From Streptomyces sp. CA-210063 (GTDB taxonomy: Bacteria > Actinomycetota > Actinomycetes > Streptomycetales > Streptomycetaceae), in assembly GCF_024612015.1 (NCBI RefSeq), contig NZ_CP102512.1, forward strand, positions 8,556,001 to 8,620,000: a stretch of DNA of 64,000 nt. The letters are read 5' to 3'. A program made the translations under genes and the position numbers. Below the pieces are notes generated by a model. That model was not told where the DNA came from. It was given only the letters and a program-made list of their open reading frames with translations, and did no database searches. Shown piece after piece: positions 13,110 to 58,600 of this stretch. Numbering within the stretch: the first letter of the stretch is position 1; the number at the start of each line of letters is the position of its first letter.

Positions 13110-13132
13110 ACCATACGACCCACCACTGACAG
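13110..13132 (-). promoter_or_regulatory. PafBC/RecA-NDp-type promoter of the RecB-like nuclease
   Basis: On the minus strand CTGTCAGTG (13132-13124) is followed after exactly 8 bp by TATGGT (13115-13110). This fits the RecA-NDp consensus TTGTCRVTG-N8-TAnnnT with one mismatch. The start codon is 8 nt past the -10, so transcription and translation would start together. The activator genes pafB and pafC are in this window. The call rests on consensus from memory. Confidence 0.65.
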
Positions 13133-13222
13133 TGACAGCCACGGGCCCGTACCACCGCCCGGTGACACGGCACACGTCAACACTCGTGTGCCGCATGCGA
13201 CGCGGGGGAAAACAGAGGGGGT

Positions 13223-13245
13223 GCCGGGGCGGAACGTGCCCCGGC
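13223..13245. promoter_or_regulatory. Inverted repeat in the divergent nuclease/protease spacer
   Basis: GCCGGGGC-GGAACGT-GCCCCGGC is a perfect 8-bp inverted repeat lying 8 bp upstream of a possible -10 TAGCAT (13253-13258) for the protease gene. It could be an operator or a hairpin. No regulator is assigned. Confidence 0.3.
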
Positions 13246-13319
13246 GACGACATAGCATCGACCGCAGACCCTTCCGCCCGGTGACCGGGCGCGGAAGACG
13301 CTTCGAACGAGGGGACATC

Positions 13320-15149
13320 GTGGAGACGAGCGGCGGGAGCGGGCAGCCGCGGTCCGGCAGCGACGAGGCGCCCGAGCGCGCGCACCGCGACGCGAACGGG
13401 ACACCGCCGGAGAGTGGCGCCCCCACCCCGGCCGGGTCCCGCCGCCACGCCGGCGAGTCCGACAGCGCCTCCGTGCCGGCCCCCGAGGCCCCCCGAGCGG
13501 CTGACGCTCCGGAAGAGCCCCGTGACTCCGAAGCGCCGACCGCAACCAAGCGCTCCGGCGACTCGGAGGGGCATGGCGCCGCAGAGAGGCAGGGTGCCGC
13601 CGAGGGACAGAGCGCCGCCGAGACGCCGGGCGCCGCCGAAGGACAGGGAGTCGCCGAGCAGCACGGCTCCGCCGAGGAATCCGCCGCTGCCAAGTCCCCC
13701 GGCGACTCCGAGGCCGCGAAGCCCTCGGGAACCCCCGTGCACGAGCCGTCCTCGGGCCCCGCGGACCAACCGCCGACGGACTCCGCGGACCAACCGTCGA
13801 CAGACGCGGTGAGCGAACCGCCGTCGGACCCGGTGAACAAGCCCTCGACAACCCCAGCGACCCCAGCGACCCCGGCGACATCGGCGACATCGGCCGACCT
13901 GAACAAGGCGCCGGCGGACGAATCGGAGCGCACGGCCACCTCCCCACGCCCCCACGTCCACTCGGACGCCACCCCCAAGCCCCCCGAGCGCCCGAAGGAT
14001 CCCGGCGGCGGCATCCTCATGGGCCGCCCCTTCGGCGTACCCGTGTACGTCGCGCCCAGCTGGTTCCTCGTCGCCGCACTGATCACCTGGGTCTTCGGCG
14101 GCCAACTCGACCGCGTCCTGCCCGAACTCGGCGCCGCCCGCTACCTGGTCTCCCTCTTCTTCGCGGTCGCCTTCTACGCCTCCGTGCTCGTCCACGAACT
14201 CGCGCACACCATCGCCGCCCTGCGCTTCAAACTGCCGGTGCGCCGCATCCAGCTCCAGTTCTTCGGCGGCGTCTCGGAGATCGAGAAGGAGTCCGAGACC
14301 CCCGGCCGCGAGTTCGTCCTGGCCTTCGTCGGCCCTCTGCTCTCCCTGGTCCTCGCGGGCGTCTTCTACGTCGCCCTGCTCGCCGTCGAGCCGGGCACCG
14401 TCCCCGGCGTACTGCTCGCCGGCCTGATGATCTCCAACCTGATCGTCGCCGCGTTCAACCTGCTGCCCGGCCTCCCCCTCGACGGCGGCCGCATGCTCCG
14501 CGCCGTCGTCTGGAAGCTCACCGGCAAACCGATGACCGGCACCATCGCCGCCGCCTGGGTCGGCCGCGCCCTCGCCGTCTCCGTCCTCATCGGACTCCCG
14601 CTGCTCACCCAGTCAGGACTGCTCGGCTCCGCTGCCGAGGACAGCGTCGGCATGGACACCGTCCTGGACGCCCTGCTGGCCGCGATCCTCGCCGCGATCA
14701 TCTGGACCGGCGCCGGCAACAGCCTCCGCATGGCCCGCCTGCGCGAACACCTCCCCGAACTCCAGGCCCGCGCCCTCACCCGCCGCGCCGTCCCCGTCGA
14801 GACCGACACCCCCCTCTCCGAGGCCCTGCGCCGCGCCAACGAAGCCGGCGCCCGCGCCCTCGTCGTCGTCGACCCCGACGGCGAACCCCTCTCCCTCGTC
14901 CGCGAGGCCGCCATCGTCGGCGTCCCCGAACACCGCCGCCCCTGGGTCGCCGTCAGCGGCCTCGCCCAGGACCTCACCGACGGCATGCGAGTCTCCGCGG
15001 AACTGGCGGGCGAAGCCCTCCTGGAGGCCCTCCGCGCCGCCCCCGCCACCGAGTACCTGGTGGTGGAGGAATCGGGCGAGATCTACGGCGTCCTCTCGGC
15101 GGCCGACGTGGAGCGCGCCTTCGTGAAGGCGATGGCACGGCCCAGCTGA
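13320..15149 (+). CDS. Site-2 protease (peptidase M50) with CBS domains and disordered N-terminus
   Basis: A 609-residue intramembrane metalloprotease that probably cleaves a membrane-bound substrate such as an anti-sigma factor. The zinc motif HELAH is near residue 294 within a hydrophobic segment. The second ligand motif NLLPGLPLDGG is near 380. Several further membrane segments follow, then a cytoplasmic CBS pair (about 490-600, LSEALRRANEAGARALVVVD). The first roughly 220 residues are a low-complexity Ala/Glu/Pro/Ser tail with short repeats such as TPATPATPAT, absent from most relatives. The GTG at 13320 has GAGGGG about 6 bases upstream. A shorter start near MGRPFGVPVYVAPSW (about 14019) is possible but has no clear ribosome site. 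Confidence 0.88.
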   Translation: METSGGSGQPRSGSDEAPERAHRDANGTPPESGAPTPAGSRRHAGESDSASVPAPEAPRAADAPEEPRDSEAPTATKRSGDSEGHGAAERQGAAEGQSAAETPGAAEGQGVAEQHGSAEESAAAKSPGDSEAAKPSGTPVHEPSSGPADQPPTDSADQPSTDAVSEPPSDPVNKPSTTPATPATPATSATSADLNKAPADESERTATSPRPHVHSDATPKPPERPKDPGGGILMGRPFGVPVYVAPSWFLVAALITWVFGGQLDRVLPELGAARYLVSLFFAVAFYASVLVHELAHTIAALRFKLPVRRIQLQFFGGVSEIEKESETPGREFVLAFVGPLLSLVLAGVFYVALLAVEPGTVPGVLLAGLMISNLIVAAFNLLPGLPLDGGRMLRAVVWKLTGKPMTGTIAAAWVGRALAVSVLIGLPLLTQSGLLGSAAEDSVGMDTVLDALLAAILAAIIWTGAGNSLRMARLREHLPELQARALTRRAVPVETDTPLSEALRRANEAGARALVVVDPDGEPLSLVREAAIVGVPEHRRPWVAVSGLAQDLTDGMRVSAELAGEALLEALRAAPATEYLVVEESGEIYGVLSAADVERAFVKAMARPS

Positions 15150-15151
15150 AA

Positions 15152-15186
15152 CGCGCCCCGAAAGGGGCGCGGGGAACCGCGCGACC
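15152..15186. terminator. Terminator and dispersed GGGGCGCGGGGAACC repeat
   Basis: CGCGCCCC-GAAA-GGGGCGCG (15152-15171) is an 8-bp stem with a GAAA tetraloop directly after the protease stop. It runs into a dispersed repeat core, GGGGCGCGGGGAACCGCGCG (from 15164). The same core occurs at 23735 and in diverged form at 23666. Confidence 0.75.
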
Positions 15187-15250
15187 AGCCACGAACCACC
15201 CGCACCCTCCGCACTCACCGGCAGTGGTCGGCGCCCTTCCCGGGGACCGG

Positions 15251-15263
15251 TAGGCTGGTCACA
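15251..15263 (+). promoter_or_regulatory. Leaderless promoter of trmI
   Basis: TAGGCT (15251-15256) is a -10 hexamer with 6 bases between it and the ATG at 15263, the geometry of a leaderless transcript. No ribosome-binding sequence precedes the ATG, which fits. No clear -35 is seen. Confidence 0.5.
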
Positions 15264-16165
15264 TGTCCGAACCGACCGGTGCCGCCCGCCGACGCGGGCC
15301 CTTCAAGGTCGGGGACCAGGTACAGCTGACCGACCCCAAGGGCCGCCACTACACGTTCACGCTCGAAGCGGGGAAGAACTTCCACACCCACAAGGGTTCC
15401 TTCCCGCACGACGAGCTGATCGGCGCACCCGAGGGCAGCGTTGTCCGCACCACGGGGAACGTCGCCTATCTGGCACTGCGCCCCCTGCTCCCCGACTACG
15501 TCCTGTCCATGCCCCGCGGCGCCGCCGTGGTCTACCCCAAGGACGCGGGGCAGATCCTGGCCTTCGCCGACATCTTCCCCGGCGCCCGCGTCGTCGAGGC
15601 CGGCGTCGGCTCCGGCTCGCTCAGCAGCTTCCTGCTGCGCGCCATCGGCGACCAGGGCATGCTGCACAGCTACGAGCGCCGCGCGGACTTCGCCGAGATC
15701 GCGCAAGCGAACGTGGAGCGCTACTTCGGCGGGCCCCACCCCGCCTGGCAGCTCACCGTCGGCGACCTCCAGGACAACCTTTCGGACACCGACGTCGACC
15801 GCGTCATCCTCGACATGCTCGCCCCCTGGGAGTGCCTGGAGGCCGTCTCCAAGGCCCTCGTCCCCGGCGGCATCGTCTGCTGCTACGTGGCGACCACCAC
15901 CCAGCTCGCCCGGACCGTCGAGTCCCTCCGCGAGATCGGCTGCTTCAACGAGCCGAGCGCCTGGGAGTCGATGATCCGCAACTGGCACATCGAGGGCCTG
16001 GCCGTCCGCCCCGACCACCGGATGATCGGCCACACCGGCTTCCTGCTCACCGCCCGCCGCCTCGCCGACGGCGTCGAGCCGCCCATGCGCCGCCGCCGCC
16101 CCGCCAAGGGCGCGTACGGCGAGGACTACGCCGGCCCCAACGCCGACGGCGGCAACGGCCGCTGA
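15263..16165 (+). CDS. trmI: tRNA (adenine-58-N1)-methyltransferase
   Basis: A 300-residue SAM-dependent enzyme that methylates N1 of A58 in the T-loop of tRNAs. The N-terminal beta domain is VGDQVQLTDPKGRHYTFTLEAGKNFHTHKG. The Rossmann domain has the SAM-binding glycine loop VVEAGVGSGSLSSFLL near residue 110, the acidic residue in LHSYERR, and VILDMLAPWE (catalytic Asp). The C-terminal Arg/Gly tail is usual in actinobacteria. It lies upstream of the proteasomal ATPase gene, a synteny shared with mycobacteria. The start is at ATG 15263 without a Shine-Dalgarno. Confidence 0.95.
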   Translation: MSEPTGAARRRGPFKVGDQVQLTDPKGRHYTFTLEAGKNFHTHKGSFPHDELIGAPEGSVVRTTGNVAYLALRPLLPDYVLSMPRGAAVVYPKDAGQILAFADIFPGARVVEAGVGSGSLSSFLLRAIGDQGMLHSYERRADFAEIAQANVERYFGGPHPAWQLTVGDLQDNLSDTDVDRVILDMLAPWECLEAVSKALVPGGIVCCYVATTTQLARTVESLREIGCFNEPSAWESMIRNWHIEGLAVRPDHRMIGHTGFLLTARRLADGVEPPMRRRRPAKGAYGEDYAGPNADGGNGR

Positions 16166-16248
16166 GCCCCGACCCACCCGGTGAGCGGCCCCGCGCCGCC
16201 CACCCGCCACCGTAGGCGGCAGCCCGCCGCGTACAACGCGCCATTGAC

Positions 16249-16286
16249 GTGGCCGAGTTCCCAGCAGCGCCCGGGAACTCGGCCAC
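16249..16286 (+). terminator. Terminator after trmI
   Basis: A perfect 14-bp stem (GTGGCCGAGTTCCC, 10-base loop, complement) lies about 85 bp after the trmI stop. An outer GCGCC/GGCGC pair can extend it. Confidence 0.75.
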
Positions 16287-16415
16287 GGCGCATTCCCGTT
16301 GACGCGCCACCAGAAAGCTGCGCGAACCACGTACCCCGCCGTTCCACGCCCCCTGTGACGTATGGCACCATGCGGGTCATCCCAACCGGCACAGCACCCT
16401 CAGGAGACGCTCCTA

Positions 16416-16991
16416 GTGCAGCAATCCGCCGTCCCGGAACTGGCACACGCGCACGCCCGCCCCATCCACTGGCTCGCCACGGCCACCGCCCTCGCCGGAG
16501 TCATGGCCCTGTCGTCCGCCCTCCAACCCGACGCGGCCAGAGCGGCCCAGCCCGGCCCGAAGGCCCAGCCTGCCCCGGCCGTCGTGACGGCCCCCGACCC
16601 CACCGAAGTGGACCTCCCGCTCGACTGCGGACCCGTCGGGATCGTCGTGAAGCAGAAGCGCTCCGGGGACCTCGACGGAGACGGCCGTCCGGAGACCGTG
16701 GCCGTCGTGCACTGCGACGCCAGCATGGGCACCCCACCCGACGGCGTGTACGTCCTCACCCGCTCCACGGACGCGGCGGACCCCCGCGTGGTCGCCACCC
16801 TCGTGAACCCCAAGGACCGCAAGACCGTCACGGACTTCGCCGTCCGTGACGCCGTCGTCACCGCGACCCTGCACGGCTACTCGTCGGCCGACGTACCCAA
16901 CTGCTGCCCGGACGTGACGGACCCCGTCAAGTGGCAATGGAAGAACGGGGCGTTCACGCGCTCGACGCCCGCCGGAGCACAAAGCGTCTGA
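16416..16991 (+). CDS. Secreted protein of unknown function
   Basis: A 191-residue protein with a Sec-type signal: HARPIHWLATATALAGVMALSSA, then a possible AxA cleavage site (ARAAQ) and a Pro-rich linker. The mature part contains SGDLDGDGRPETVAVVHC, an acidic Asp/Gly loop like a calcium-binding or FG-GAP-type element, and paired cysteines (C near 65, HCD, NCCPD). The GTG at 16416 was chosen for AGGAG nine bases upstream; the frame is open further up. I do not recognise a function. It sits between trmI and the ferredoxin gene, convergent with the latter. Confidence 0.75.
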   Translation: MQQSAVPELAHAHARPIHWLATATALAGVMALSSALQPDAARAAQPGPKAQPAPAVVTAPDPTEVDLPLDCGPVGIVVKQKRSGDLDGDGRPETVAVVHCDASMGTPPDGVYVLTRSTDAADPRVVATLVNPKDRKTVTDFAVRDAVVTATLHGYSSADVPNCCPDVTDPVKWQWKNGAFTRSTPAGAQSV

Positions 16992-17061
16992 CACCGCCCG
17001 CCGGAAGACGAACGGGAAATGATCACCCGGCAAACCCGGTGTGAGAAAACAGACACGGAAC

Positions 17062-17093
17062 GACGCGGAGTGTCCGCCGGATCACTCCGCGTC
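17062..17093. terminator. Bidirectional hairpin between secreted protein and ferredoxin genes
   Basis: GACGCGGAGTG-N10-CACTCCGCGTC is a perfect 11-bp stem. Its right arm overlaps the ferredoxin stop codon (17082-17084). It lies 70 bp after the convergent secreted-protein stop. Confidence 0.65.
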
Positions 17094-17387
17094 AGGGCCG
17101 AAGACCTCGACCCTGTCCGAAACCCGACGTACGTGAATGCACTCACCCGGGCATTCCTTCGCGGAGTCCACCACATCCGTGAGAAGCGGCAGCGGAACGG
17201 GCGTTGTGGCCCCCGGGGCCTGCAACAACTCCTCGCCCGGACTCTTCACATAGGCCAGTCCGTCGATGTCCAGCTCGAACACCTCGGGCGCGTACTGGGC
17301 ACAGATGCCGTCGCCCGTGCACAGGTCCTGGTCGATCCAGACCTCGAGCGCCTCACCCTCGGCTCCGGCCTCCTGCTGCACGGTCAT
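17082..17387 (-). CDS. Small single-cluster ferredoxin
   Basis: A 101-residue electron carrier. The first cluster motif, CTGDGICAQYAPEVF (Cys-x5-Cys), and the distal CPGECIHV fit the 3Fe-4S or 4Fe-4S ferredoxins that serve actinobacterial P450s. The acidic C-terminus (VFGPDAE) is common. ATG 17387 has AGGAG nearby. A ferredoxin at this place next to the proteasome ATPase gene is conserved in actinobacteria as I recall. No P450 is adjacent; the nearest is rarE 30 kb away, so its partner is unknown. Confidence 0.88.
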   Translation of the reverse strand: MTVQQEAGAEGEALEVWIDQDLCTGDGICAQYAPEVFELDIDGLAYVKSPGEELLQAPGATTPVPLPLLTDVVDSAKECPGECIHVRRVSDRVEVFGPDAE

Positions 17388-17632
17388 CTCTCCTGCCGTT
17401 TCATTCGTCGAGCCGGTCGGGAACGATGCAGGCTCTGACGGGTGTTGAACACTTCGACCCTACCTGGGGCGGCTTCCCAATCATGTTCAGTGGGTATTCC
17501 CCTGGCGTGAGGGAGAGCGCAAGGGTGAAGATCGGACACACCCCGACCGTCTTTGTGATCTAGGGGTTTCAATCGACACCCACCCAGGTAGGGTCTGGAA
17601 GCGTCCAGCTCCCCTTGGAGGAGGTGAGGACC

Positions 17633-21240: not shown

Positions 21241-21263
21241 ATGTCAGACCCGGCTTGTAGGGT
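21241..21263 (+). promoter_or_regulatory. Probable pup promoter, weak PafBC-type match
   Basis: ATGTCAGAC (21241-21249), then exactly 8 bp, then TAGGGT (21258-21263). The -10 and spacing fit the RecA-NDp layout; the -35 matches TGTCRV but not the last two positions. It lies 63 bp before the pup ATG. Confidence 0.4.
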
Positions 21264-21325: not shown

Positions 21326-21541
21326 ATGGCGACCAAGGACACCGGCGGCGGCCAGCAGAAGGCCACGCGTTCCACCGAAGAGGTCGAGGAGGCACCCGAG
21401 GCGCAGGCTTCGGAGGACCTCAAGGAGCGGCAGGAGAAGCTGAGCGACGACGTGGACTCGGTTCTCGACGAAATCGATGATGTGCTCGAAGAGAACGCCG
21501 AGGATTTCGTTCGGTCATTCGTTCAGAAGGGCGGCGAGTAG
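21326..21541 (+). CDS. pup: Prokaryotic ubiquitin-like protein Pup
   Basis: A 71-residue intrinsically disordered tag that PafA links to lysines of target proteins. The conserved C-terminal half is SDDVDSVLDEIDDVLEENAEDFVRSFVQKGGE. The last residue is Glu, not Gln, so it can be ligated without prior deamidation. The N-terminus MATKDTGGGQQKATR is rich in Gly and Gln. ATG 21326 follows GGGGTGAGGG; the frame is open 50 codons upstream, but only this start gives the family length. It lies between dop and the proteasome core genes. Confidence 0.96.
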   Translation: MATKDTGGGQQKATRSTEEVEEAPEAQASEDLKERQEKLSDDVDSVLDEIDDVLEENAEDFVRSFVQKGGE

Positions 21542-21591: not shown

Positions 21592-21958
21592 GTGAAACGC
21601 TGCGTGCGGTGCGGTGAGTGCAAACCGCGCGCAGCGTTCGCCCGCAAGCGGTCAAACCTTGACGGCTTGCAACAGCAAGCGCCTGTGGCGCGAGTACGGC
21701 CTCACCGAAGGTGAACGAGACGAACTGATCGCCTCCCAGGGCGGGGTCTGTCGTATATGCCTATCCGCTCCTGTGACGCATGTGGATCACTGCCTTAAGA
21801 CGGGTAGGGTCCGAGGCGTACTGTGCTTCAACTGCAATTCTGGCCTCGGTCTGTTGAGGGACGACCCCGATGCGATGAACCGAGCTGCCGACTACCTGGA
21901 AGGAAACGCGTGGAAGCCAACACTCGTAGCACCGGGCGTCTACCAGCTGCCTTCCTGA
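21592..21958 (+). pseudogene. Frameshifted endonuclease VII (HNH) remnant
   Basis: From GTG 21592 (after GGAGG) one frame reads VKRCVRCGECKPRAAFARKR then SNLDGLQ, the zinc-ribbon start of endonuclease VII-like proteins, and stops at 21714. The next frame, from about 21675, reads CNSKRLWREYGLTEGE, GGVCRICLSAPVTHVDHC and [19 protein letters not shown], the HNH part of the same family, to 21958. The join near 21666-21675 lacks the usual CxxC linker, which suggests a small out-of-frame deletion. The 3' end overlaps prcB by 49 bp. Either half could still be translated; a 114-codon frame from GTG 21614 covers the HNH part. The position between pup and prcB is unexpected for this family. Confidence 0.55.
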
Positions 21959-29305: not shown

Positions 29306-30283
29306 ATGGCCATTGCCAAGGCCGAGCGGCTGATGAACCTGGCGCTGTGTCTGCTGGGGACGCGCCGGCCGCTCAGCAAGCGCGAGCTGCGGGATTCCAT
29401 CGAGGCGTACGTCGAGGCCGTCAGGCCGGAAAACGGTGCGGCCGGCTCCGACGACTCCTTCAACCGCATGTTCGAGCGCGACAAGGACGATCTGCGCGAA
29501 CTCGGCCTGGTCATCGAGACGGTGGAGAACCTCGACGGCGAGGTCGGCTATCTGGCCCGCCGCGACAGCAACAGCCTCCCGCCCATCACCCTCGACGCCG
29601 AGGAGGCCGCAGCCCTCGGACTCGCCGCGAAGGTCTGGCAGCAGGCCCGCCTCGCCGGTGCCGCGAGCGGCGCCCTGCAGAAGCTGCGCGCGGCCGGGCT
29701 GCCCGAGGACGTCGACCCGTACGAGCCCCATGGGGCCCTGGAGCCGCGTATCCCGGTGCACGAGGCCGCCTTCGAGCCGCTGATGCTGGCCTGCCGCGAC
29801 CGCCGCCCGGTCGTGTTCGAGTATCGCAAGGCCACCGCCGCCCGCCCCGAGCCCCGGCATGTGGAGCCGTGGGCGCTGGAGTGCTGGCGCGGCCACTGGT
29901 ACCTCGCCGGCTGGGACCGCGACCGGGGCGCCGAGCGCGTCTTCCGGCTCTCGCGGATCACCGGCAAGGTCCGCAGCCGGGGCGGCGCCTTCACCGTCGA
30001 GGTGCCGGACGTCGTCACCGTCCGGGAGACGGTCGCGAGCTGGGCGGGGGAGACCGCCGACCGCTCCGCGCTGATCCGGCTGCGTACGGGCGCCGGCTAC
30101 CCGCTGCGCGCGAAGGCCTCCGCCGCACGGGAACTCGGCGACGGCTGGGACGAGTTGGAGATTCCGTACGGGCACGGTCTGGACGCCTGGCTGGTCGAGT
30201 TCGGGCCCGACGTGGTGGTCCTGGAGCCCGCCGAGCTGCGGGCCGACGTGGTGGACCGGCTGCGTGCCGTGGCCAAGGGTTGA
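29306..30283 (+). CDS. pafB: WYL-domain transcriptional regulator PafB
   Basis: A 325-residue subunit of the PafBC complex, which activates DNA-damage genes independently of LexA. The N-terminal winged helix (ERLMNLALCLLGTRRPLSKRELRDSI) binds DNA. The central WYL domain (about 150-230) has VVFEYRK, HVEPWALECWRGHWYLAGWDRDRGAERVFRLSRI. The C-terminal WCX part is ALIRLRTGAGYPLRAKA...ELEIPYG. ATG 29306 has AGGAAGGGC before it. pafC follows after 15 bp. Candidate targets carrying its promoter type are found elsewhere in this window. Confidence 0.93.
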   Translation: MAIAKAERLMNLALCLLGTRRPLSKRELRDSIEAYVEAVRPENGAAGSDDSFNRMFERDKDDLRELGLVIETVENLDGEVGYLARRDSNSLPPITLDAEEAAALGLAAKVWQQARLAGAASGALQKLRAAGLPEDVDPYEPHGALEPRIPVHEAAFEPLMLACRDRRPVVFEYRKATAARPEPRHVEPWALECWRGHWYLAGWDRDRGAERVFRLSRITGKVRSRGGAFTVEVPDVVTVRETVASWAGETADRSALIRLRTGAGYPLRAKASAARELGDGWDELEIPYGHGLDAWLVEFGPDVVVLEPAELRADVVDRLRAVAKG

Positions 30284-30298: not shown

Positions 30299-31297
30299 GT
30301 GGTGGGAAAACCGGCGCGGCCGGGGAACGCCATCGACCAGACCCGGCGGATGCTCTCCCTGGTGACGTATCTGCGGGAGCGGCCCGGCGCCCGGATCGAG
30401 GACGTCGCCCGCGCCTTCGGGATCACCGAGGACGAACTGGTCTCGGACCTCGATGTGCTGCCCATGTGCGGGACCAGCTTCCGCGGCGGTGATCTGCTCG
30501 ACATCGACACCGACGGTGAGCGCATCTGGTGGCACAACCCGGCCGCCCTCGGCGCGGAGGCCGCAGAGCCGCTGCGGCTGGCCGCCGACGAGGCCACCGC
30601 CCTGCTGGTGGCCGCCCGCGCGGTCGCCACGCTGCCCGGGCTGCGGGAGAGCGACCGGCAGGCCCTGCTGCGGGCCACCGCCAAGGTCGAGACCGCGGCC
30701 GGGGAGGCGGCGGGCGCCAGCTCCCGCCTGTCGGTCACCTTCGAGGCCGAGGGCGGGGTCTTCGCCGACGTCGACCGGGCCATCTCGGAGCGGCGGCGGC
30801 TGTGGATCCGCTACTACTCGCCCGCCCGCGACGAGGTCACCGAACGCGAGATCGACCCGATCCGTCTGGTCAGCGTCGGCCACACCTATGTCGAGGCCTG
30901 GTGCCGCCGCTCCGAGGCCCGCCGTACCTTCCGGCTGGACCGGGTCGCCGAGATCAAGATCCTCGACGAGCCGTCCGCGCCGCCCGAGATCGAGCTGCGG
31001 GACCTGTCGGAGGCGCTGGTGCAGCCCGCCGCCGAGGACCCCGAGGTCGTCGTCGAGGTCGGCCCCGGCGGGCGCTGGGTCGCCGAGTACTACCCGCACG
31101 ACAGCGCCGAGGAGCTGCCGGACGGCGGGCTGCGCATCAGTCTGCGCACCCCCGAGCCCGCCTCGCTGCGGCGCCTGGCGCTGCGGCTCGGGCGCGACGG
31201 ACGGATCGTCTCCCCGCAGGACCTCGCCGACAGCGCCCGCCGGGCGGCCCGCGAGGCACTGGCGGCCTACGACGAGACCGTGACGACGAGACCGTGA
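30299..31297 (+). CDS. pafC: WYL-domain transcriptional regulator PafC
   Basis: A 332-residue partner of PafB. The N-terminal helix-turn-helix is RRMLSLVTYLRERPGARIEDVARAFGITEDELVSDLDVL. The WYL domain is LWIRYYSPARDEVTEREIDPIRLVSVGHTYVEAWCRRSEARRTFRLDRVAEI. The C-terminal WCX domain ends near PASLRRLALRLGRDGRI. The GTG start at 30299 lies 15 bp after pafB, with GAGGGGGACG before it, so the two are cotranscribed and probably coupled. Both act as one heterodimer on promoters with a TTGTCRVTG-N8-TAnnnT pattern. Confidence 0.93.
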   Translation: MVGKPARPGNAIDQTRRMLSLVTYLRERPGARIEDVARAFGITEDELVSDLDVLPMCGTSFRGGDLLDIDTDGERIWWHNPAALGAEAAEPLRLAADEATALLVAARAVATLPGLRESDRQALLRATAKVETAAGEAAGASSRLSVTFEAEGGVFADVDRAISERRRLWIRYYSPARDEVTEREIDPIRLVSVGHTYVEAWCRRSEARRTFRLDRVAEIKILDEPSAPPEIELRDLSEALVQPAAEDPEVVVEVGPGGRWVAEYYPHDSAEELPDGGLRISLRTPEPASLRRLALRLGRDGRIVSPQDLADSARRAAREALAAYDETVTTRP

Positions 31298-33637: not shown

Positions 33638-33660
33638 TTGTCAGTGGGGGCCGGTAGTCT
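33638..33660 (+). promoter_or_regulatory. PafBC/RecA-NDp-type promoter of the Ski2-like helicase
   Basis: TTGTCAGTG (33638-33646), then exactly 8 bp, then TAGTCT (33655-33660). This is a full match to TTGTCRVTG-N8-TAnnnT. The ATG is 10 bases after the -10, leaving a leader of only a few nucleotides and no ribosome site. Confidence 0.75.
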
Positions 33661-33670
33661 CGAAAGCACG

Positions 33671-36475
33671 ATGACAGAGGACCTCTCACCGGCCGAGCGG
33701 TACGCGGCAGCCCGCAAGCGCGCTGCCGAGCAGGCCACCGCACTCGCCTCCTTCCGCGAGATGTACGACTTCGGTCTCGACCCCTTCCAGATCGAGGCCT
33801 GCCAGGCGCTGGAGGCGGGCAAGGGCGTCCTGGTGGCCGCCCCCACCGGCTCGGGCAAGACGATCGTCGGCGAGTTCGCCGTCCACCTCGCCCTCCAACA
33901 GGGCAAGAAGTGCTTCTACACGACACCCATCAAGGCGCTGTCCAACCAGAAGTACGCCGACCTGTGCCGCCGCTACGGCGCCGACAAGGTCGGCCTGCTC
34001 ACCGGCGACAACAGCGTCAACTCCGACGCCCCCGTGGTCGTGATGACCACCGAGGTGCTGCGGAACATGCTGTACGCGGGCTCCCAGACGCTCCTGGGCC
34101 TCGGCCACGTGGTCATGGACGAGGTGCACTACCTCTCCGACCGCTTCCGCGGCGCCGTCTGGGAAGAGGTGATCATCCACCTCCCCGAGTCGGTCACCCT
34201 CGTCTCGCTGTCGGCCACCGTGTCGAACGCGGAGGAGTTCGGCGACTGGCTGGACACCGTGCGCGGCGACACCCAGGTGATCGTCTCGGAGCACCGGCCC
34301 GTGCCGCTGTTCCAGCATGTGCTCGCCGGACGGCGGATGTACGACCTCTTCGAGGAGGGCGAGGGCAGCAAGAAGGCCGTCAACCCCGACCTCACGCGCA
34401 TGGCGCGCATGGAGGCCAGCCGCCCCTCGTTCCAGGACCGCAGACGTGGCCGGGCCATGCGCGAGGCCGACCGTGAGCGCGAGCGCAGACAGCGCTCGAG
34501 GATCTGGATCCCGAGCCGCCCCGAAGTCATCGAACGGCTCGACTCCGAAGGCCTGCTGCCCGCCATCACCTTCATCTTCAGCCGCGCCGCCTGCGAGGCC
34601 GCCGTCCAGCAGTGCCTGTACGCGGGGCTCCGGCTGAACGACGACGACGCCCGGCTCAGAGTGCGCGCCCTGGTCGAGGAGCGCACGGCGTCGATCCCGC
34701 ACGAGGACCTCCATGTCCTCGGCTACTACGAGTGGCTGGAAGGCCTGGAGCGCGGTATCGCGGCCCACCACGCGGGCATGCTGCCGACCTTCAAGGAAGT
34801 CGTCGAGGAACTCTTCGTACGCGGCCTGGTCAAGGCCGTGTTCGCCACCGAGACCCTCGCCCTCGGCATCAACATGCCCGCCCGCTCGGTCGTGTTGGAG
34901 AAGCTCGTCAAGTGGAACGGCGAGCAGCACGCCGACATCACACCGGGTGAGTACACGCAGCTGACCGGCCGTGCCGGGCGGCGCGGCATCGACGTCGAGG
35001 GCCACGCGGTCGTGCTCTGGCAGCGCGGCCTGAACCCCGACCACCTGGCCGGGCTCGCGGGCACCCGTACGTATCCGCTGCGCTCCAGCTTCAAGCCGTC
35101 GTACAACATGGCGGTCAACCTGGTCGAGCAGTTCGGCAGGCACCGCTCGCGCGAGCTGCTGGAGACGTCCTTCGCGCAGTTCCAGGCCGACAAGTCGGTC
35201 GTCGGGATCTCCCGGCAGGTGCAGCGCAACGAGGAGGGTCTGGAGGGCTACCAGGAGTCCATGACCTGCCACCTCGGGGACTTCGAGGAGTACGCGCGCC
35301 TCAGGCGGGAGCTGAAGGACCGCGAGACCGAGCTGGCGAAGCAGGGCGCGGCCCAGCGGCGGGCCGAGGCGGCCGTCGCCCTGGAGAAGCTGAAGCCGGG
35401 CGATGTCATCCATGTCCCCACGGGCAAGTACGCGGGGCTGGCGCTGGTGTTGGACCCCGGGCTGCCCGCCGGGCGGTCCAACGGCCACCGCGGGTTCGAG
35501 CAGCACGACGGGCCGCGGCCGCTGGTGCTGACCGCCGAGCGGCAGGTCAAGCGGCTGGCGTCGATGGACTTCCCGGTGCCTGTCGAAGCGCTGGAGCGGA
35601 TGCGGATTCCGAAGTCCTTCAATCCGCGTTCGCCGCAGTCGCGGCGGGATCTGGCGTCCGCGCTCCGCACCAAGGCCGGGCATCTCGTGCCCGACCGGCA
35701 CCGCAAGCGGCGGGCCGCGGCCGCGGACGACCGCGAGATCGCCCGGCTGCGTGCCGAGTTGCGGGCGCATCCGTGCCATGGGTGCACCGACCGTGAGGAT
35801 CACGCGCGTTGGGCCGAGCGGTACTACCGTCTCAAGCGGGACACCGCGCAGTTGGAGCGGCGTATCGAGGGGCGGACGAACACGATCGCGCGGACCTTCG
35901 ACCGCATCGTCGCCCTGCTGACCGAGCTGGACTACCTGCGGGGCGACGACGTCACCGAGCACGGGAAGCGGCTGGCGCGGCTGTACGGCGAGCTGGATCT
36001 GCTGGCGAGTGAGTGTCTGCGGGCGGGCGTGTGGGAGGGGCTCGGGCCTGCGGAGCTGGCCGCGTGTGTTTCGGCGCTGGTCTACGAGGCGCGCGTCAGC
36101 GATGACGCGATGGCGCCGAAGCTGCCGTCCGGGAACGCCAAGGCCGCGCTGGGGGAGATGGTGCGGATCTGGGGGCGGCTGGATGCGCTGGAGGAGGAGT
36201 TCCGGATCACGCAGAGCGAAGGGGTTGGGCAGCGGGAGCCGGACCTTGGGTTCGCCTGGGCCGCGTATATGTGGGCCTCGGGGAAGGGGCTGGACGAGGT
36301 GCTGCGGGAGGTGGAGATGCCGGCCGGGGACTTTGTGCGGTGGTGCAAGCAGGTGATTGACGTGCTGGGGCAGATCTCGGCGGCGGCGCCCTCCGGGTCG
36401 ACCGTGGGGAAGAGTGCGCGTAAGGCTGTTGATGGGCTGTTGAGGGGGGTTGTGGCTTACTCCTCGGTGGGGTGA
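33671..36475 (+). CDS. Ski2/Mtr4-like DEAD/DEAH-box helicase
   Basis: A 934-residue superfamily 2 helicase, related to actinobacterial HelY. Motif I AAPTGSGKT is near residue 56, motif II DEVH near 152, motif III SLSATVSN near 180, and motif VI QLTGRAGRRGIDVEG near 435. ALGINMPARSVV is motif V. A C-terminal Ski2 region (DSHCT-like, LVYEARVSDD...) completes it. A His/Cys segment HPCHGCTDREDHARW may bind metal. ATG 33671 is nearly leaderless, with the damage-type promoter just upstream. A role in RNA turnover or DNA repair cannot be decided from sequence; the promoter favours a damage link. Confidence 0.93.
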   Translation: MTEDLSPAERYAAARKRAAEQATALASFREMYDFGLDPFQIEACQALEAGKGVLVAAPTGSGKTIVGEFAVHLALQQGKKCFYTTPIKALSNQKYADLCRRYGADKVGLLTGDNSVNSDAPVVVMTTEVLRNMLYAGSQTLLGLGHVVMDEVHYLSDRFRGAVWEEVIIHLPESVTLVSLSATVSNAEEFGDWLDTVRGDTQVIVSEHRPVPLFQHVLAGRRMYDLFEEGEGSKKAVNPDLTRMARMEASRPSFQDRRRGRAMREADRERERRQRSRIWIPSRPEVIERLDSEGLLPAITFIFSRAACEAAVQQCLYAGLRLNDDDARLRVRALVEERTASIPHEDLHVLGYYEWLEGLERGIAAHHAGMLPTFKEVVEELFVRGLVKAVFATETLALGINMPARSVVLEKLVKWNGEQHADITPGEYTQLTGRAGRRGIDVEGHAVVLWQRGLNPDHLAGLAGTRTYPLRSSFKPSYNMAVNLVEQFGRHRSRELLETSFAQFQADKSVVGISRQVQRNEEGLEGYQESMTCHLGDFEEYARLRRELKDRETELAKQGAAQRRAEAAVALEKLKPGDVIHVPTGKYAGLALVLDPGLPAGRSNGHRGFEQHDGPRPLVLTAERQVKRLASMDFPVPVEALERMRIPKSFNPRSPQSRRDLASALRTKAGHLVPDRHRKRRAAAADDREIARLRAELRAHPCHGCTDREDHARWAERYYRLKRDTAQLERRIEGRTNTIARTFDRIVALLTELDYLRGDDVTEHGKRLARLYGELDLLASECLRAGVWEGLGPAELAACVSALVYEARVSDDAMAPKLPSGNAKAALGEMVRIWGRLDALEEEFRITQSEGVGQREPDLGFAWAAYMWASGKGLDEVLREVEMPAGDFVRWCKQVIDVLGQISAAAPSGSTVGKSARKAVDGLLRGVVAYSSVG

Positions 36476-50325: not shown

Positions 50326-50348
50326 AGCGTACGTGGCGGTACCGACAG
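50326..50348 (-). promoter_or_regulatory. PafBC/RecA-NDp-like promoter of the pseudouridine synthase gene
   Basis: On the minus strand CTGTCGGTA (50348-50340), 8 bp, then TACGCT (50331-50326). It matches TTGTCRVTG-N8-TAnnnT except at the first and last positions of the -35 element. Confidence 0.5.
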
Positions 50349-53508: not shown

Positions 53509-53563
53509 GGCGGCAACCTGCTTTCGCAACAAGCGGCGCGAGCTTTCGCGCGAGAGCGGCGCG

Positions 53564-53610
53564 AATTCCTGTCGGGCGACAGAAATTGGGGAGTGGCGAC
53601 AGAAATTAGG
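53564..53610. promoter_or_regulatory. Second TetR-type operator, with duplicated half-site
   Basis: AATTCCTGTCG-GG-CGACAGAAATT (53564-53587) is an inverted repeat with one mismatch and the same half-sites as at 43521. The right half is repeated: CGACAGAAATTGGG (53577) and CGACAGAAATTAGG (53597) are exactly 20 bp apart, about two helical turns. It lies between the permease and the divergent N-formylglutamate amidohydrolase. Confidence 0.7.
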
Positions 53611-53620
53611 GGAGTCCTGT

Positions 53621-53639
53621 GTCGCGTGTGTCACGCGAC
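53621..53639. promoter_or_regulatory. 19-bp palindrome in the permease/amidohydrolase spacer
   Basis: GTCGCGTG-TGT-CACGCGAC is a perfect 8-bp inverted repeat, 130 bp upstream of the amidohydrolase start and 11 bp beyond the TetR-type half-site. It could be a second regulator's operator. Confidence 0.4.
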
Positions 53640-53768
53640 CGTGTCCGGGGCGGGCCCAAATCCTCACGACTTTTTCAGGGTGGGCAGTTGGGGGCAAGGG
53701 AGGGGAGCGAGGAGGTGTCGTCGAGCGGCACGCCCCACACCGCAGACCCCCACAGCGAGGATCCCCGG

Positions 53769-54584: not shown

Positions 54585-56205
54585 ACGTCCCCAACCCGGT
54601 CTCGTCGAACGCCTCGATCGTCACCTCGGTGGCCTTGCCGTTCGCGTCGCCCTTGAAGGTGACGCCGGAGGGGCCGCTCGCGTTCTCGCCCACCGTTTCG
54701 AAGAAGTACGTGTCGCCGGCGTAGTGGGTCAGGCGGAAGGTCATGGGTTTGGGGCCGAGGCGCATGGTCAGGTCGCCGCCGGTTTTCGTGACGGTGAGGG
54801 GGCCGTAGTACGCGTTGGTGTAGGTGCCCGTGTAGGTGGCGTCGGCGCGGGCGTCGGAGGCGTCCTCCGGGGGCTTGCCGTAGTCGGTGGGGGAGCGGGA
54901 CTTCTGGGCCTCCTGCTCATAGAGCCGGCCGGCCAGGTCCAGCCAGTCCTCGGTCGGCTTGCCGTGCTGGGCCGTGTCGAGGAAGTCCAGGGAGACGGCG
55001 TCGGCGAGGCCGACGGGTTCGCCGTTGGTGAGGACGGCGATGCCGAGCTGTTCGCCGGGCAGCATCATGACGTTGGTGTTGGCGCCGAGGGCGAAGGCCC
55101 CGGAGTGGCTGAGGCGGAGGCGGCCCAGGTCGTCGTAGGAGACGTTCCAGCCGAGGCCGTAGAAGCCGGCGCGGCCCGCCGGGGCGGGCGGCGGCTGGGA
55201 GACGATCTCGGGGACGTGGGTGCGTTCGAGGGGGTCGGCGGCGATGACACGGTCGCCGTCCAGCTCGCCGTTCGCGAGCTGGAGCCGCAGCCAGAGGGAG
55301 AGGTCGCGGACCGTGGAGCTCGCACCGCCGGCCGGGGACTGGGCGTCGGCGTCCCGGACGTGCCTCGCCTCCCAGGTGCCGGTGCCGGTGCCGGTGCCGG
55401 TGTCATCGTCGCCGGTGTCGCCGTCGCGGACGTGCGCGAAGGCCTTGTCGGTCGCGGCCTCGTAGTCGTTGAAGCGGGAGCTGGTGGCGTCCATGCCGGC
55501 CGGCTTGTAGAGCGTGTCCTCGGCGAGCTTCTCCCAGCTCGTCCCGGCGGCGTCGGCGACGGCCTCGCCCGCCGCCGTGACGCCGAAGTTGGTGTAGGCG
55601 TAGCTCGCGCGGAACGGCGTCAGGGGCTCCAGGCGGAGGTGTTCGAGGACGTAGTCGCGGTCGTAGCCGAGGTCCTCCAGGAGATCCCCGGCGTGGTCGG
55701 GGAGGCCGCTGCGGTGGGAGAAGAGGTCCGCGATGGTGACGTGGTCGGTCACCCAGGGGTCCTTCAGGGCGAAGGACGGGAGGTGCTCGGACACCGGGTC
55801 GTCCCAGTCGACGGTCTTGTCGCCGACGGCCCCGGCGACGACGGTCGAGGCCAGTGGCTTCGACAGGGAGGCCAGCTGGAACACCGTGTCGGGGCCGACC
55901 TCGGCGTCCTGGCCGACATGCCGCTTGCCGTAGCCGTCCAGGTGGACGACCCGGTCCTGGTACACGACGGCCACCGCGACGCCCGGCACCCCGGTCCGGT
56001 CCATGCCGCGCTCGACGATGCCGTCCAGGGCGTCGACCGCCCGGTCGACGTCCTCCTGGGTCAGCTGGGGCGGCGGCTGCGGCGGGGGAGCCGCCGAGAC
56101 GGTGCCGATGCCGTACGGGACACAGCCGAGGACGAGGAGCGAGGCGAGGGCCGTCGCGCCCCGGGTCCTGCTTCGGTGGTGTGTCCTCGCGTGCCGAACA
56201 CCCAT
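54571..56205 (-). CDS. Secreted serine hydrolase of the beta-lactamase/D-Ala-D-Ala carboxypeptidase fold
   Basis: A 544-residue exported penicillin-binding-like esterase or peptidase. The signal peptide (TALASLLVLGCVPYG) includes a possible lipobox ending at Cys28. The catalytic Ser113-x-x-Lys116 lies in QLASLSKPLAS, YTN in SYAYTNFG, and HSG in LRLSHSGAF. A C-terminal beta domain (about 460-544) follows. A hexanucleotide run (CCGGTG repeats, about 55377-55405) encodes a DDDTGTGTGTGTW linker, a likely slippage site. ATG 56205 was chosen as nearest to the signal peptide; the ribosome site is weak. The substrate is unknown. Confidence 0.88.
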   Translation of the reverse strand: MGVRHARTHHRSRTRGATALASLLVLGCVPYGIGTVSAAPPPQPPPQLTQEDVDRAVDALDGIVERGMDRTGVPGVAVAVVYQDRVVHLDGYGKRHVGQDAEVGPDTVFQLASLSKPLASTVVAGAVGDKTVDWDDPVSEHLPSFALKDPWVTDHVTIADLFSHRSGLPDHAGDLLEDLGYDRDYVLEHLRLEPLTPFRASYAYTNFGVTAAGEAVADAAGTSWEKLAEDTLYKPAGMDATSSRFNDYEAATDKAFAHVRDGDTGDDDTGTGTGTGTWEARHVRDADAQSPAGGASSTVRDLSLWLRLQLANGELDGDRVIAADPLERTHVPEIVSQPPPAPAGRAGFYGLGWNVSYDDLGRLRLSHSGAFALGANTNVMMLPGEQLGIAVLTNGEPVGLADAVSLDFLDTAQHGKPTEDWLDLAGRLYEQEAQKSRSPTDYGKPPEDASDARADATYTGTYTNAYYGPLTVTKTGGDLTMRLGPKPMTFRLTHYAGDTYFFETVGENASGPSGVTFKGDANGKATEVTIEAFDETGLGTFRRS

Positions 56206-56270
56206 GTGTTCATTCAAACGGGTGAGCCGGGCTTTGTCCTGTGGAGGACGGGGCCCGGCCGCCGGGGGGC

Positions 56271-56461
56271 ACGCGGGTGGGAGGTGGGAGTCGTCCGAGG
56301 TCACGCGGGTGGGAGGTGGGAGTCTCCGGAGGTCACGCGAGTGGGAGGTGGGAGTCTCCGGAGGTCACGGGGTGGGAGGTGGGAGTCGTCCGAGGTCACG
56401 GGGTGGGAGGTGGGGGTCGCCCGAGGCCTCAGGCTCGGATGTCGGAGTCGTCCGATGCCTC
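56271..56461. repeat. Tandem repeat array A, 32-bp period, about six copies
   Basis: Units start at 56271, 56303, 56335, 56367, 56398 and about 56430. The shared core is GGGAGGTGGGAGTC then TCCGAGGTCACG. Copies 1-5 differ at a few positions; copy 6 is more diverged (GGATGTCGGAGTCGTCCGAT). The period is not a multiple of three, so no conserved protein is encoded. It lies upstream of the serine hydrolase. Confidence 0.8.
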
Positions 56462-56469
56462 GGCGGTCG

Positions 56470-56590
56470 GATCGCCGCCCGGCCGCCGAGGCTGCGTGGG
56501 GCAGCCGCCACGGCCGCGCAAGGCTGTGTGGTTCAGCCGCCACAGCCGCGCAAAGCTGTGAGGGTCAGCCGCCGCAGTCGTGCGAGGCGG
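56470..56590. repeat. Tandem repeat array B, 32-bp period, about three and a half copies
   Basis: Units CAGCCGCCACGGCCGCGCAA... begin at 56502, 56534 and 56566, with a degenerate copy before (about 56470). The sequence differs from array A, but the 32-bp period and phase continue from it, so about ten units of 32 bp fill 56271-56590. Confidence 0.7.
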
Positions 56591-56629
56591 CGCTTCCCCG
56601 ATCGCCCCGATCACCCCGGTCGTCCGACG

Positions 56630-57475
56630 TCACGCCGTCGCGGACACGCCATCCTGTTCCGCCTCGACGCGCGCGTTCCACTCCTTCTTCGCGGCCTGCC
56701 AGCCGTCCTCGTCGTGGCCGAGGCGCCAGTAGCCGGAGACGGACAAGTCCTCGCGCGGGACGGAGAGTTCGACGCGCAGCAGTCGGCGCAGCTCCTTCAC
56801 GAAGCCCGCCTCGCCGTGGACGAAGGCGTGCAGCCGGCCCTCGGGGAACTCCAGCGCGCGTACGGCCTCGACGAGGGCGGCGCCGATGGGACGGTCGCCG
56901 CGGTGCAGCCAGACGACGTCCACATCGGAGTTGATCTTCTGCTCCTCCTCGGGACCGGCGACCTCGACGAGCGCGTGGACCCGGGCGCCGTCGGGAAGGG
57001 CCTCCAGGGAGGCGCCGATCGCGGGCAGGGCGCTCTCGTCGCCGACGAGCAGATGCCAGTCGGCCTCCGGGTTGGGCGCGTAGGCACCGCCCGGGCCCAG
57101 GAAACGGACCAGCTCGCCCGGCTGGACGCGGGTCGCCCAGGGACCGGCGAGACCCTCGTCGCCGTGGAGCACGAAGTCGATGGTCAGCTCGCGCAGTCCG
57201 GGATCCCAGGCCCGCACGGTGTACGTCCGGGTCACCGGCCACTGGTCCCGGGGGAACTCCGCACGGATCCGCTCCAGGTCGAAGGGCTCCGGATACGTCA
57301 TGCCCTCGGGGCCGAACAGGAGCTTCACATAATGGTCGGTGCTGCCGCGCGGGGAGAACTCCGCGAGGCCGTCGCCCCCCAGCACGACGCGCTGCATGTG
57401 CGGGGTGAGCCGCTCTGTGCGGACGACTCGCCCGGAGTGGGGCTTCGGGGTCCTGCGTACCGGACGCTCTGCCAT
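56630..57475 (-). CDS. Siderophore-interacting protein (ferric-siderophore reductase)
   Basis: A 281-residue FAD-binding SIP/ViuB-family reductase that frees iron from ferric siderophores in the cytoplasm using NAD(P)H or ferredoxin. Landmarks are RTERLTPHMQRVVLGGDGL, HYVKLLF, the FAD motif RTYTVRAWDPGLRELTIDFVLHGDEGLAGPWA, VRFLGPGGAY, LLVGDESALPAIGASLEALP and FVHGEAGFVKELRRLLR. ATG 57475. An iron-box-like sequence overlaps its promoter region, so repression by a DtxR-type regulator when iron is plentiful is expected. No siderophore transport genes are adjacent. Confidence 0.93.
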   Translation of the reverse strand: MAERPVRRTPKPHSGRVVRTERLTPHMQRVVLGGDGLAEFSPRGSTDHYVKLLFGPEGMTYPEPFDLERIRAEFPRDQWPVTRTYTVRAWDPGLRELTIDFVLHGDEGLAGPWATRVQPGELVRFLGPGGAYAPNPEADWHLLVGDESALPAIGASLEALPDGARVHALVEVAGPEEEQKINSDVDVVWLHRGDRPIGAALVEAVRALEFPEGRLHAFVHGEAGFVKELRRLLRVELSVPREDLSVSGYWRLGHDEDGWQAAKKEWNARVEAEQDGVSATA

Positions 57476-57491
57476 GACGGCCTCCCAAGTA

Positions 57492-57513
57492 CCTACTAAG
57501 GCTTACCTAAGTT
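57492..57513 (-). promoter_or_regulatory. Iron box (DmdR/IdeR-type) upstream of the siderophore reductase
   Basis: CTAAGGCTTACCTAAGTTAG around 57496-57513 contains GCTTACCTAA, nine of ten bases of the IdeR/DmdR half-site GCTAACCTAA; the other half (AAGGCTTA) is looser. It lies about 20 bp upstream of the start codon. Confidence 0.55.
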
Positions 57514-57529
57514 AGCATCTCCCCCTGTT

Positions 57530-57555
57530 GTACACCTCATGCTTGAGAGGTGTAC
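57530..57555. terminator. Hairpin in the exonuclease/siderophore-reductase spacer
   Basis: GTACACCTC-N8-GAGGTGTAC is a perfect 9-bp stem, about 95 bp after the exonuclease stop on the minus strand. It may be a terminator or an operator. Confidence 0.5.
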
Positions 57556-57624
57556 GCGGACTTCATGGTGTGAATCGCGCCTCAAAGCCCTCACCACCGA
57601 AGTGTCTCCCCACCCTCCGGCGTG

Positions 57625-57643
57625 CGCCCCGCCCGGGGGGGCG
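57625..57643 (-). terminator. Terminator after the 5'-3' exonuclease gene
   Basis: CGCCCC (57625-57630) pairs with GGGGCG (57638-57643) in a G/C-rich hairpin 7 bp after the exonuclease stop. Confidence 0.5.
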
Positions 57644-57649
57644 TCCACC

Positions 57650-58570
57650 TCACGCCTGCAGCGTCGTGAGCAACCGCTGCAGCGATCCCCCGAGGCCCCA
57701 GCGCGCCGCGAGCTCCTCCAGCGCCGCCGGATCTCGCGGCGCGCGCGGCAGCGCCGTGTCGACCTCCGGCAACGGTACGTCGGCCGCCACCTGGACGACC
57801 GTGGGTGCGACCGCGACATAAGGTCGCGCCTCGTCGAGTCTCTTGCGCTGTGACGGCGTCAGCTTGGCCGCCGGGTCGTCGACCGCGGCCATGATCCCGG
57901 CCAGGTCGCCGAACTGGTCGAGGAGTTTCGCGGCCGTCTTCTCGCCGATGCCGGGCACACCCGGCAGACCGTCGCTCGGGTCGCCGCGCAGCAGGGCCAG
58001 ATCCGCGTACCCGCGGCCGTCCACGCCATACTTCTCGCGCAGCCATGCCTCGTCGGTCAGCTGCAGCGAGCCCACGCCCTTCAGCGGGTACAGCACACGC
58101 ACGCCGCGCCCGTCGTCGACCAGCTGGTACAGGTCGCGGTCGCCGGTGACGATGTCGACCGGGTCCTTCGCTCGGGCCGTGAAGGTGCCGATCACATCGT
58201 CCGCCTCGTACCCGGCGACGCCCACGCGCGCGATGCCGAGCGCGTCCAGCACCTCCTCGATGACCGGCACCTGCGGCGACAGCGTGTCCGGCACCTCCTC
58301 CTCGTCCGGGCCGACCTCGTGCTCCTCGGCGACGCGGTGCGCCTTGTAGGAGGGGATCAGGTCGACCCGCCACTGCGGGCGCCAGTCCGCGTCCATGCAT
58401 GCCACCAGGTCCGTCGGCCGGTGGTCCCGGACCAGGCGGTCGATGAATTCGAGCAGCCCGCGCACGGCGTTCACCGGGGTGCCGTCCGGGGCCTTCACGG
58501 AGTCCGGTACCCCGAAGTAGGCGCGGAAGTACAGGGAGGCGGTGTCGAGGAGCATCAGGCGTCGGGTCAC
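57650..58570 (-). CDS. 5'-3' exonuclease (FEN/Pol I N-domain-like)
   Basis: A 306-residue nuclease like the N-terminal domain of DNA polymerase I. Metal-binding acids are in LMLLDTASLYFRAYF, LVACMDADWRPQWR, GYEADDVIGT and VDIVTGDRDLYQLV. The helix-hairpin-helix motif is GLPGVPGIGEKTAAKLLDQFG. The expected role is flap or RNA-primer removal and repair. GTG 58570 was chosen because it lies 7 nt past a -10-like CATGAT and gives the common MTRRLMLLDTAS-type start; ATG 58579 and 58582 lack ribosome sites. A damage-type promoter is likely. Confidence 0.9.
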   Translation of the reverse strand: MTRRLMLLDTASLYFRAYFGVPDSVKAPDGTPVNAVRGLLEFIDRLVRDHRPTDLVACMDADWRPQWRVDLIPSYKAHRVAEEHEVGPDEEEVPDTLSPQVPVIEEVLDALGIARVGVAGYEADDVIGTFTARAKDPVDIVTGDRDLYQLVDDGRGVRVLYPLKGVGSLQLTDEAWLREKYGVDGRGYADLALLRGDPSDGLPGVPGIGEKTAAKLLDQFGDLAGIMAAVDDPAAKLTPSQRKRLDEARPYVAVAPTVVQVAADVPLPEVDTALPRAPRDPAALEELAARWGLGGSLQRLLTTLQA

Positions 58571-58577
58571 GCCCCGC

Positions 58578-58600
58578 ATCATGCCGCACGGCACCGACAC
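58578..58600 (-). promoter_or_regulatory. PafBC-type promoter of the 5'-3' exonuclease (imperfect)
   Basis: On the minus strand GTGTCGGTG (58600-58592), 8 bp, then CATGAT (58583-58578). The -35 matches except its first base, and the -10 has C for T. The GTG at 58570 would be transcription start +1 or +2. Confidence 0.45.

Follow-up and report, generated by a model that had tools for sequence, protein, structure and literature searches.

The window analysed here is a stretch of 64,000 nucleotides (nt) from Streptomyces sp. CA-210063 (C1:8556001-8620000 of a 10.86-Mb genome in one contig, all of which was scanned for sites). It encodes PafB and PafC together with Pup, a RecB-like nuclease, the Ski2-like helicase HelY, an RluA-type enzyme and a 5'-3' exonuclease (Table 1), and the promoters of these genes are the subject of this work. 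A first-pass annotation had quoted three promoter motifs, before helY, the RecB-like gene and the RluA-type gene, and two weaker ones, before the exonuclease gene and pup, and had proposed them as targets of PafBC that form a local damage regulon. We consider it highly probable that helY, the RecB-like gene and the exonuclease gene have promoters of the PafBC type (RecA-NDp), as members of a genome-wide set and not of a local circuit; the site of the RluA-type gene would probably be a chance match, and pup is best regarded as undecided.

All five quoted motifs are present with spacers of exactly 8 bp, the cores of the three lying at 33639-33660 (+), 13131-13110 (-) and 50347-50326 (-) and the two weaker sites at 58600 (-) and 21241 (+). 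A match to the three motifs is expected 0.05 times in shuffled windows, and 0 of 100 shuffles reached three. The gene identities, which are those of ordinary protein families, were also borne out by Pfam (PD-(D/E)XK RecB-like nuclease, DSHCT/DEAD Ski2-like helicase, RNA pseudouridylate synthase, 5'-3' exonuclease and Pup), as was the presence of pafB and pafC, by Pfam and by matches to the structure 7p5x. In what follows, the strict core is TGTCRGTG-N8-TANNNT, where TANNNT is the -10 element and N8 is the spacer counted from the box to the -10.

Table 1. Genes and promoter sites of the window, in order of position
Feature	Position	Strand	Details
RecB-like PD-(D/E)XK nuclease, 307 amino acids	12178..13101	-	Pfam PF12705, E 2e-42
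Predicted PafBC-type promoter of the RecB-like nuclease	13110..13132	-	CTGTCAGTG-N8-TATGGT; ATG 13101, 8 nt past the -10, near-leaderless
Undecided site before pup	21241..21263	+	ATGTCAGAC-N8-TAGGGT, 62 nt before pup
pup	21326..21541	+	Pfam PF05639, E 1.9e-29
pafB (WYL + WCX)	29306..30283	+	Best PDB match 7p5x chain AY, E 4.1e-55
pafC (HTH_PafC + WYL + WCX)	30299..31297	+	PF19187, E 1.2e-27; 7p5x chain AX (PafC), E 7.4e-52
Predicted PafBC-type promoter of helY	33638..33660	+	TTGTCAGTG-N8-TAGTCT; ATG 33671, 10 nt past the -10
Ski2-like helicase HelY (DEAD + DSHCT)	33671..36475	+	Pfam PF08148, E 4.8e-41, and PF00270; scanned from the open reading frame start 33626
Unsupported target: site before the RluA-type gene	50326..50348	-	CTGTCGGTA-N8-TACGCT
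5'-3' exonuclease, 306 amino acids	57650..58570	-	Pfam PF02739, E 4.4e-46, and PF01367
Predicted PafBC-type promoter of the 5'-3' exonuclease	58578..58600	-	GTGTCGGTG-N8-CATGAT; GTG 58570, 7 nt past the -10; C for T at the first -10 base

Distribution and conservation of the sites

When the spacer of the strict core was varied, 65 sites were found at N8 in this genome and only 8 in sum over the 14 other spacings of N2-N16. The other spacings put the chance expectation at N8 at about 0.6, a reversed control (17 matches over 15 spacings) at 1.1 and the reversed fixed pattern at 2. A relaxed pattern drawn from the quoted sites gave 68 matches genome-wide against 5 for the same pattern backwards; the helY and RecB-like sites are strict, and the RluA site is one of the three relaxed matches that fall off the core. 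The recA gene of this genome carries a strict site. An independent sample, 1.2 Mb from two further genomes of the genus (40 stretches of G242 and 20 of G201), had 9 TGTCAGTG sites at N8 and 2 over the 14 other spacings. All 16 same-genus genomes that were counted, our own included, had 24-72 strict sites each, with 0-3 in the reversed control. The genus was taken as Streptomyces from the titles of the best named loci matched by the window PafC, the best 80 of which comprise 79 Streptomyces and 1 'Actinobacteria bacterium'; the closest are S. caniscabiei and S. europaeiscabiei. Apart from these, two genomes of genus g37 in family f19 (G174 and G154) carried 198 and 118 strict sites with 0 control matches, and the 8 other listed g37 genomes carried 31-63; the excess is perhaps an expansion of the regulon or a repeat that carries the site.

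A family scan was made of 52 proteins, namely 50 encoded downstream of strict sites outside the window plus the window HelY and RecB-like protein, and 18 of them belong to replication, repair or nuclease/helicase families. They are RecA, UvrA, UvrB, RuvC, a RarA-like ATPase, two UvrD-type helicases, a RadA-like protein (named by eye from generic ATPase matches), DnaG, DnaX, an HhH-GPD glycosylase, an AlkZ-like protein, MGMT, UDG, a RecD2-type HHH protein, a DEAD helicase and the two window proteins. The scan left out 11 strict sites (L007, L014, L015, L017, L021, L028, L034, L035, L048, L054 and L061), and two strict sites (L029 and L044) had no called open reading frame. A start codon follows the -10 by 5-9 nt in 35 of the 65 strict sites, an estimate in that starts were called by a simple script, and the transcript would therefore start at or near the start codon. 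In S. coelicolor, about 21% of mRNAs are leaderless (PMC4895711). At one strict site (L011), the gene behind it encodes a ThyX thymidylate synthase that is split by an intein with an HNH nuclease.

A comparison of leave-one-out matrix scores with recA and with random windows favoured two of the quoted sites and not the other three. The helY (30.1) and RecB-like (24.6) sites came near recA (28.0); the RluA (13.7), exonuclease (9.0) and pup (7.7) sites fell in the range of the best matches in 20 Markov-1 windows (2.4-14.8), one of which exceeded the RluA score. Conservation gave a different order. For helY, TGTC-4-N8-TAnnnT stands at a constant distance from the ATG in 34/34 same-genus loci, in which TGTC and TA..T are invariant and the upstream flank has a mean of 61%. 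Among the 80 named loci, helY was not found in 4, and the site is present in 75 of the remaining 76 (72 strict), the sole exception having a 7-bp spacer. In all 30 same-genus loci of the RecB-like gene (the best 30 matches, from 61 genomes), the site is strict and a start codon follows it by 7-8 nt. For the exonuclease, TGTC-4-N8-CATSAT is kept in 28/30 same-genus loci, and TGTCRGTG with the start codon in 25/30; its -10 fails the published TANNNT consensus, and in all else the site has the look of the PafBC type. These counts take in our own genome, except for pup, whose loci do not include it. Just upstream of the RecB site, a TCGATGGTATGC-like second element was seen by eye in several of the loci L094-L123, and is perhaps part of a divergent M50-protease promoter.

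The RluA-type gene was rejected as a target. Its box, TGTCGGTA, is not the core one, and the site occurs in 2/30 same-genus loci, the window being one of them. Thus the strength ranking of the first-pass annotation is reversed, the 'strong' RluA site being probably chance and the 'weak' exonuclease site real. At pup, TGTC-4-N8-TAGGGT is kept in 88/89 loci (TGTCRGAC in 84/89), and so something probably reads this site; the TGTCRGTG core was found in 0/89. The pup box, which lacks the GTG of PafBC boxes throughout these loci, looks like a separate conserved promoter element, and pup stays undecided as a PafBC target. Between pup and the proteasome subunit gene lies a gene of the recombination endonuclease VII type (21614-21958).

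Because of the genome-wide spacing test, the presence of recA in the set and the conservation at orthologues, helY, the RecB-like gene and the exonuclease gene are very probable targets. The proposal that the quoted sites are PafBC targets thus holds for the type of motif and, very probably, for these three genes; it fails for the RluA-type gene and is undecided for pup.

The proposed local damage regulon beside pafBC was not supported. Random placement predicts 0.38 of the 65 strict sites in the window, which has 2 (P(>=2)=0.057). With three sites P would fall to 0.007, but the remaining one of the three quoted as strong is that of the RluA-type gene. In 500 random placements of 65 sites, the densest 64-kb window held 3 sites in 320 placements and 4 in 150. 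The real densest 64-kb window holds 5 strict sites and lies elsewhere in the genome, a density reached in 16/500 placements; the strict sites cluster somewhat genome-wide and not notably in this window. The three window genes are unremarkable members of a set that spans the genome and includes recA, uvrA, uvrB, ruvC, dnaG and dnaX, and a private local circuit is not supported. Among the best matches listed, no matrix match lies just before pafA or pafB, which fits the report that PafBC levels are unchanged on damage (PMC8223512).

The predicted reader of the sites

PafB and PafC of the window match chains of the 7p5x transcription complex over nearly their whole length. In that kind of complex, PafB contacts a -26 motif and PafC holds sigma domain 4, and single-stranded DNA activates the pair, a mode called sigma adaptation (PMC11804915). 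A TGTCRGTG box fixed 8 bp from the -10 would fit this -26 geometry. By analogy with M. smegmatis, DNA damage would give rise to single-stranded DNA that activates a PafB-PafC heterodimer; PafB would read TGTCRGTG at about -26, PafC would hold sigma region 4, and the housekeeping polymerase would then start at a promoter with a -10 and without a usable -35. Judging from the distances to the start codons, the start would lie at or a few bases from the start codon and give leaderless or near-leaderless mRNAs. PafBC dependence of the window promoters is inferred.

The RecB-like and exonuclease genes are presumably orthologues of rv2119 of M. tuberculosis and MSMEG_3883 of M. smegmatis, judging from family and gene order. 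The recB-like rv2119 was over-expressed under mitomycin C in a recA mutant (PMC8151990), and the 5'-3' exonuclease gene MSMEG_3883 was down 1.6-fold in unstressed cells that lacked pafBC (PMC5656591).

Several observations weigh against this interpretation. The same-genus loci are kin and so do not count as independent trials. The helY box drifts in distant same-genus loci, the full TGTCRGTG being present in 21/34 (counted by reading the listing). Outside the genus, the helY site was found in 0 of the 24 class loci examined, and helY control is therefore not ancient; at the RecB-like gene, 24 such loci gave 6 strict sites, 11 looser ones and 7 absences. The exonuclease site does not rise above random windows in the matrix score, and its box was not enriched at the proper spacing, TGTCGGTG-N8-CANNNT giving 11 matches at N8 against 12, 7, 13 and 12 at N2, N5, N11 and N14 (first 100 of 184 listed matches). 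The link between motif and PafC across the class is weak. A PafC match is absent from 8 of 197 class genomes, most of them incomplete, and these have 1, 0, 13, 1, 1, 0, 2 and 0 strict sites (G029, G050, G060, G067, G070, G080, G083 and G096, respectively). The three of at least 90% completeness (G029, G070 and G080) have 1, 1 and 0, but many PafC-bearing genomes also have 0-3. The genome with 13 strict sites and no PafC match (G060, family f20) is 78% complete, and pafC may be missing from the assembly. Moreover, our genome has six HTH_PafC matches, so that the box could be read by a different WYL protein.

The last two points favour the strongest of the alternatives, that the promoters are real and damage-responsive and that their reader is another WYL/HTH_PafC paralogue or ClgR. 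For ClgR, recognition of the same RecA-independent P1 motif has been reported from mycobacteria (PMC5656591), and SiwR, a second WYL activator, is also -26-dependent (PMC10693628). On the other hand, this is the box that has been linked with PafBC of M. tuberculosis, in the form TGTCGG/AG/AC-10N-TA-3N-T (PMC8151990), and both window proteins fit the solved complex nearly end to end; we regard another reader as unlikely.

Plain housekeeping promoters, with TGTCAGTG as a weak version of the -35 and without need of an activator, would account for the -10-like hexamer and for the leaderless distance to the start codon at 35 of the 65 strict sites. An ordinary -35 lies about 23 bp before the -10, whereas TGTC begins 16 bp before it. 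The exact 8-bp spacing (65 against 8) and the share of replication, repair and nuclease/helicase families (18 of 52) also speak against such promoters, and we think this explanation very improbable. Chance matches, which may explain the RluA site (2/30 loci and a score within the random range) and possibly pup as a PafBC site (the GTG core in 0/89), are hardly credible otherwise, since the conservation at helY, the RecB-like gene and the exonuclease gene is strongly opposed to chance, and TGTC-4-N8-TAGGGT at pup is itself conserved and probably read by something. A PafBC-type set read by PafBC is the interpretation that we prefer.

A possible second form of the -10 element

Because the -10 of the exonuclease promoter is CATGAT, other first bases of the -10 were tested. 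TGTCAGTG-N8-CANNNT was over-represented: among the first 100 of 184 listed matches, 17 had the N8 spacing and 6 had one of 14 other spacings. In the full count, the first -10 base behind TGTCAGTG-N8 is T in 50 sites, C in 33, G in 14 and A in 1. The non-T set consists of 48 sites (47 CANNNT/GANNNT and one AANNNT), and the reversed control gave 3 matches. An extended -10 TG, one base upstream of the -10, is present in 23/48 non-T sites and in 0/65 T sites (both boxes); when the labels were shuffled 100,000 times, 0 shuffles reached this contrast. At the fifth -10 base, A occurs in 19/48 non-T and 2/65 T sites (p=7e-7). Of 22 scanned proteins behind non-T sites (including those at L291 and L297; 42 open reading frame references), 7 belong to replication or repair: PolA, a DnaN-family clamp, HolA, a HolB-like protein, DinB, Lhr and a DnaQ-type exonuclease. 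At polA, the site reads TGTC[AG]G[TC]G-N5-TGG-CAGGAT with GTG 6-7 nt further on, and 20/20 other same-genus loci retain it. A -10 of this kind is also seen at the window exonuclease, where the box is TGTCGGTG. A methyltransferase gene is preceded by a tandem pair of C-form PafBC-type sites 28 bp apart (L298:2001-2050, +).

In the independent 1.2-Mb sample (G242 and G201), the N8 spacing and the C/G sites recur. There the TG contrast was not significant (2/5 C/G against 1/6 T, p=0.55), and A at the fifth -10 base was found in 3/5 C/G and 0/6 T sites (p=0.06). One T-type site of the sample carries TG, and therefore a rule of two forms is not absolute.

There is perhaps an even chance that the PafBC promoters of Streptomyces have two nearly exclusive -10 forms behind TGTCAGTG-N8: one with T and without the extended TG, the other with C or G, often compensated by TGn just upstream and/or by A at the fifth base. 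Such a rule would hold each promoter just too weak without its activator, and promoter strength without PafBC may be limited by allowing one strong -10 feature per promoter. The two-form rule draws on one genome and on the conservation of the polA and exonuclease sites, the latter of which is without TG and has A at the fifth base only.

Relation to known damage regulons

The box is reportedly described for recA of S. rimosus (Ahel, 2002). The sites resemble the mycobacterial RecA-NDp/PafBC system in the TGTC[AG]G box with its exact spacing to TANNNT, in a DNA-repair regulon that includes recA, uvrA and ruvC, and in the position of pafBC beside the Pup-proteasome locus (PMC8223512; PMC8151990). 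Unlike in that system, A dominates the fifth base of TGTCRGTG here (50 of the 65 strict sites), C or G may stand at the first -10 base, often with added -10 features, and the helY site belongs to this genus and to 0/24 of the other class loci examined.

The SIGffRid study of 2008 described a TGTCAGT motif set for 67 S. coelicolor genes; those that it names include uvrB, ung, radA, dinP, polymerase I and dnaN (PMC2375139). This is the same box and spacing in the same genus as here; the main text, in the part that was accessible, names no activator, helY, RecB-like gene, 5'-3' exonuclease or split -10 (PMC2375139). The macrodomain gene SCO6735 of S. coelicolor has a RecA-NDp promoter and showed 5-fold induction by ultraviolet light in quantitative reverse-transcription PCR; the accessible part of that paper reports the induction without a test of PafBC dependence (PMC5087735). 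Likewise, a macrodomain-like gene adjoins a strict site in our genome (L005; named by eye, with no Pfam match). In the open-licence literature, as judged by titles and the starts of abstracts, we found no paper on PafBC control in Streptomyces or on two -10 forms.

A study of DNA damage in S. venezuelae stated in 2022 that, by an initial search, the PafBC motif of M. smegmatis seemed not to be conserved there, and that a RecA/LexA-independent response had yet to be demonstrated (PMC9380542). The 24-72 strict sites in 16/16 same-genus genomes bear on this statement, S. venezuelae not being among the named records. The sites of our genome before recA, uvrA, uvrB, ruvC and replication genes are a ready list of targets and make the PafBC question directly testable. 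The second -10 form, to which the TANNNT consensus is blind, would bring up to 48 further sites beside the 65, among them those of polA, the DnaN-family clamp gene, holA, a holB-like gene, dinB and lhr. If confirmed, the two-form rule would suggest how an activator-dependent promoter stays silent, and it would nearly double the predicted regulon.

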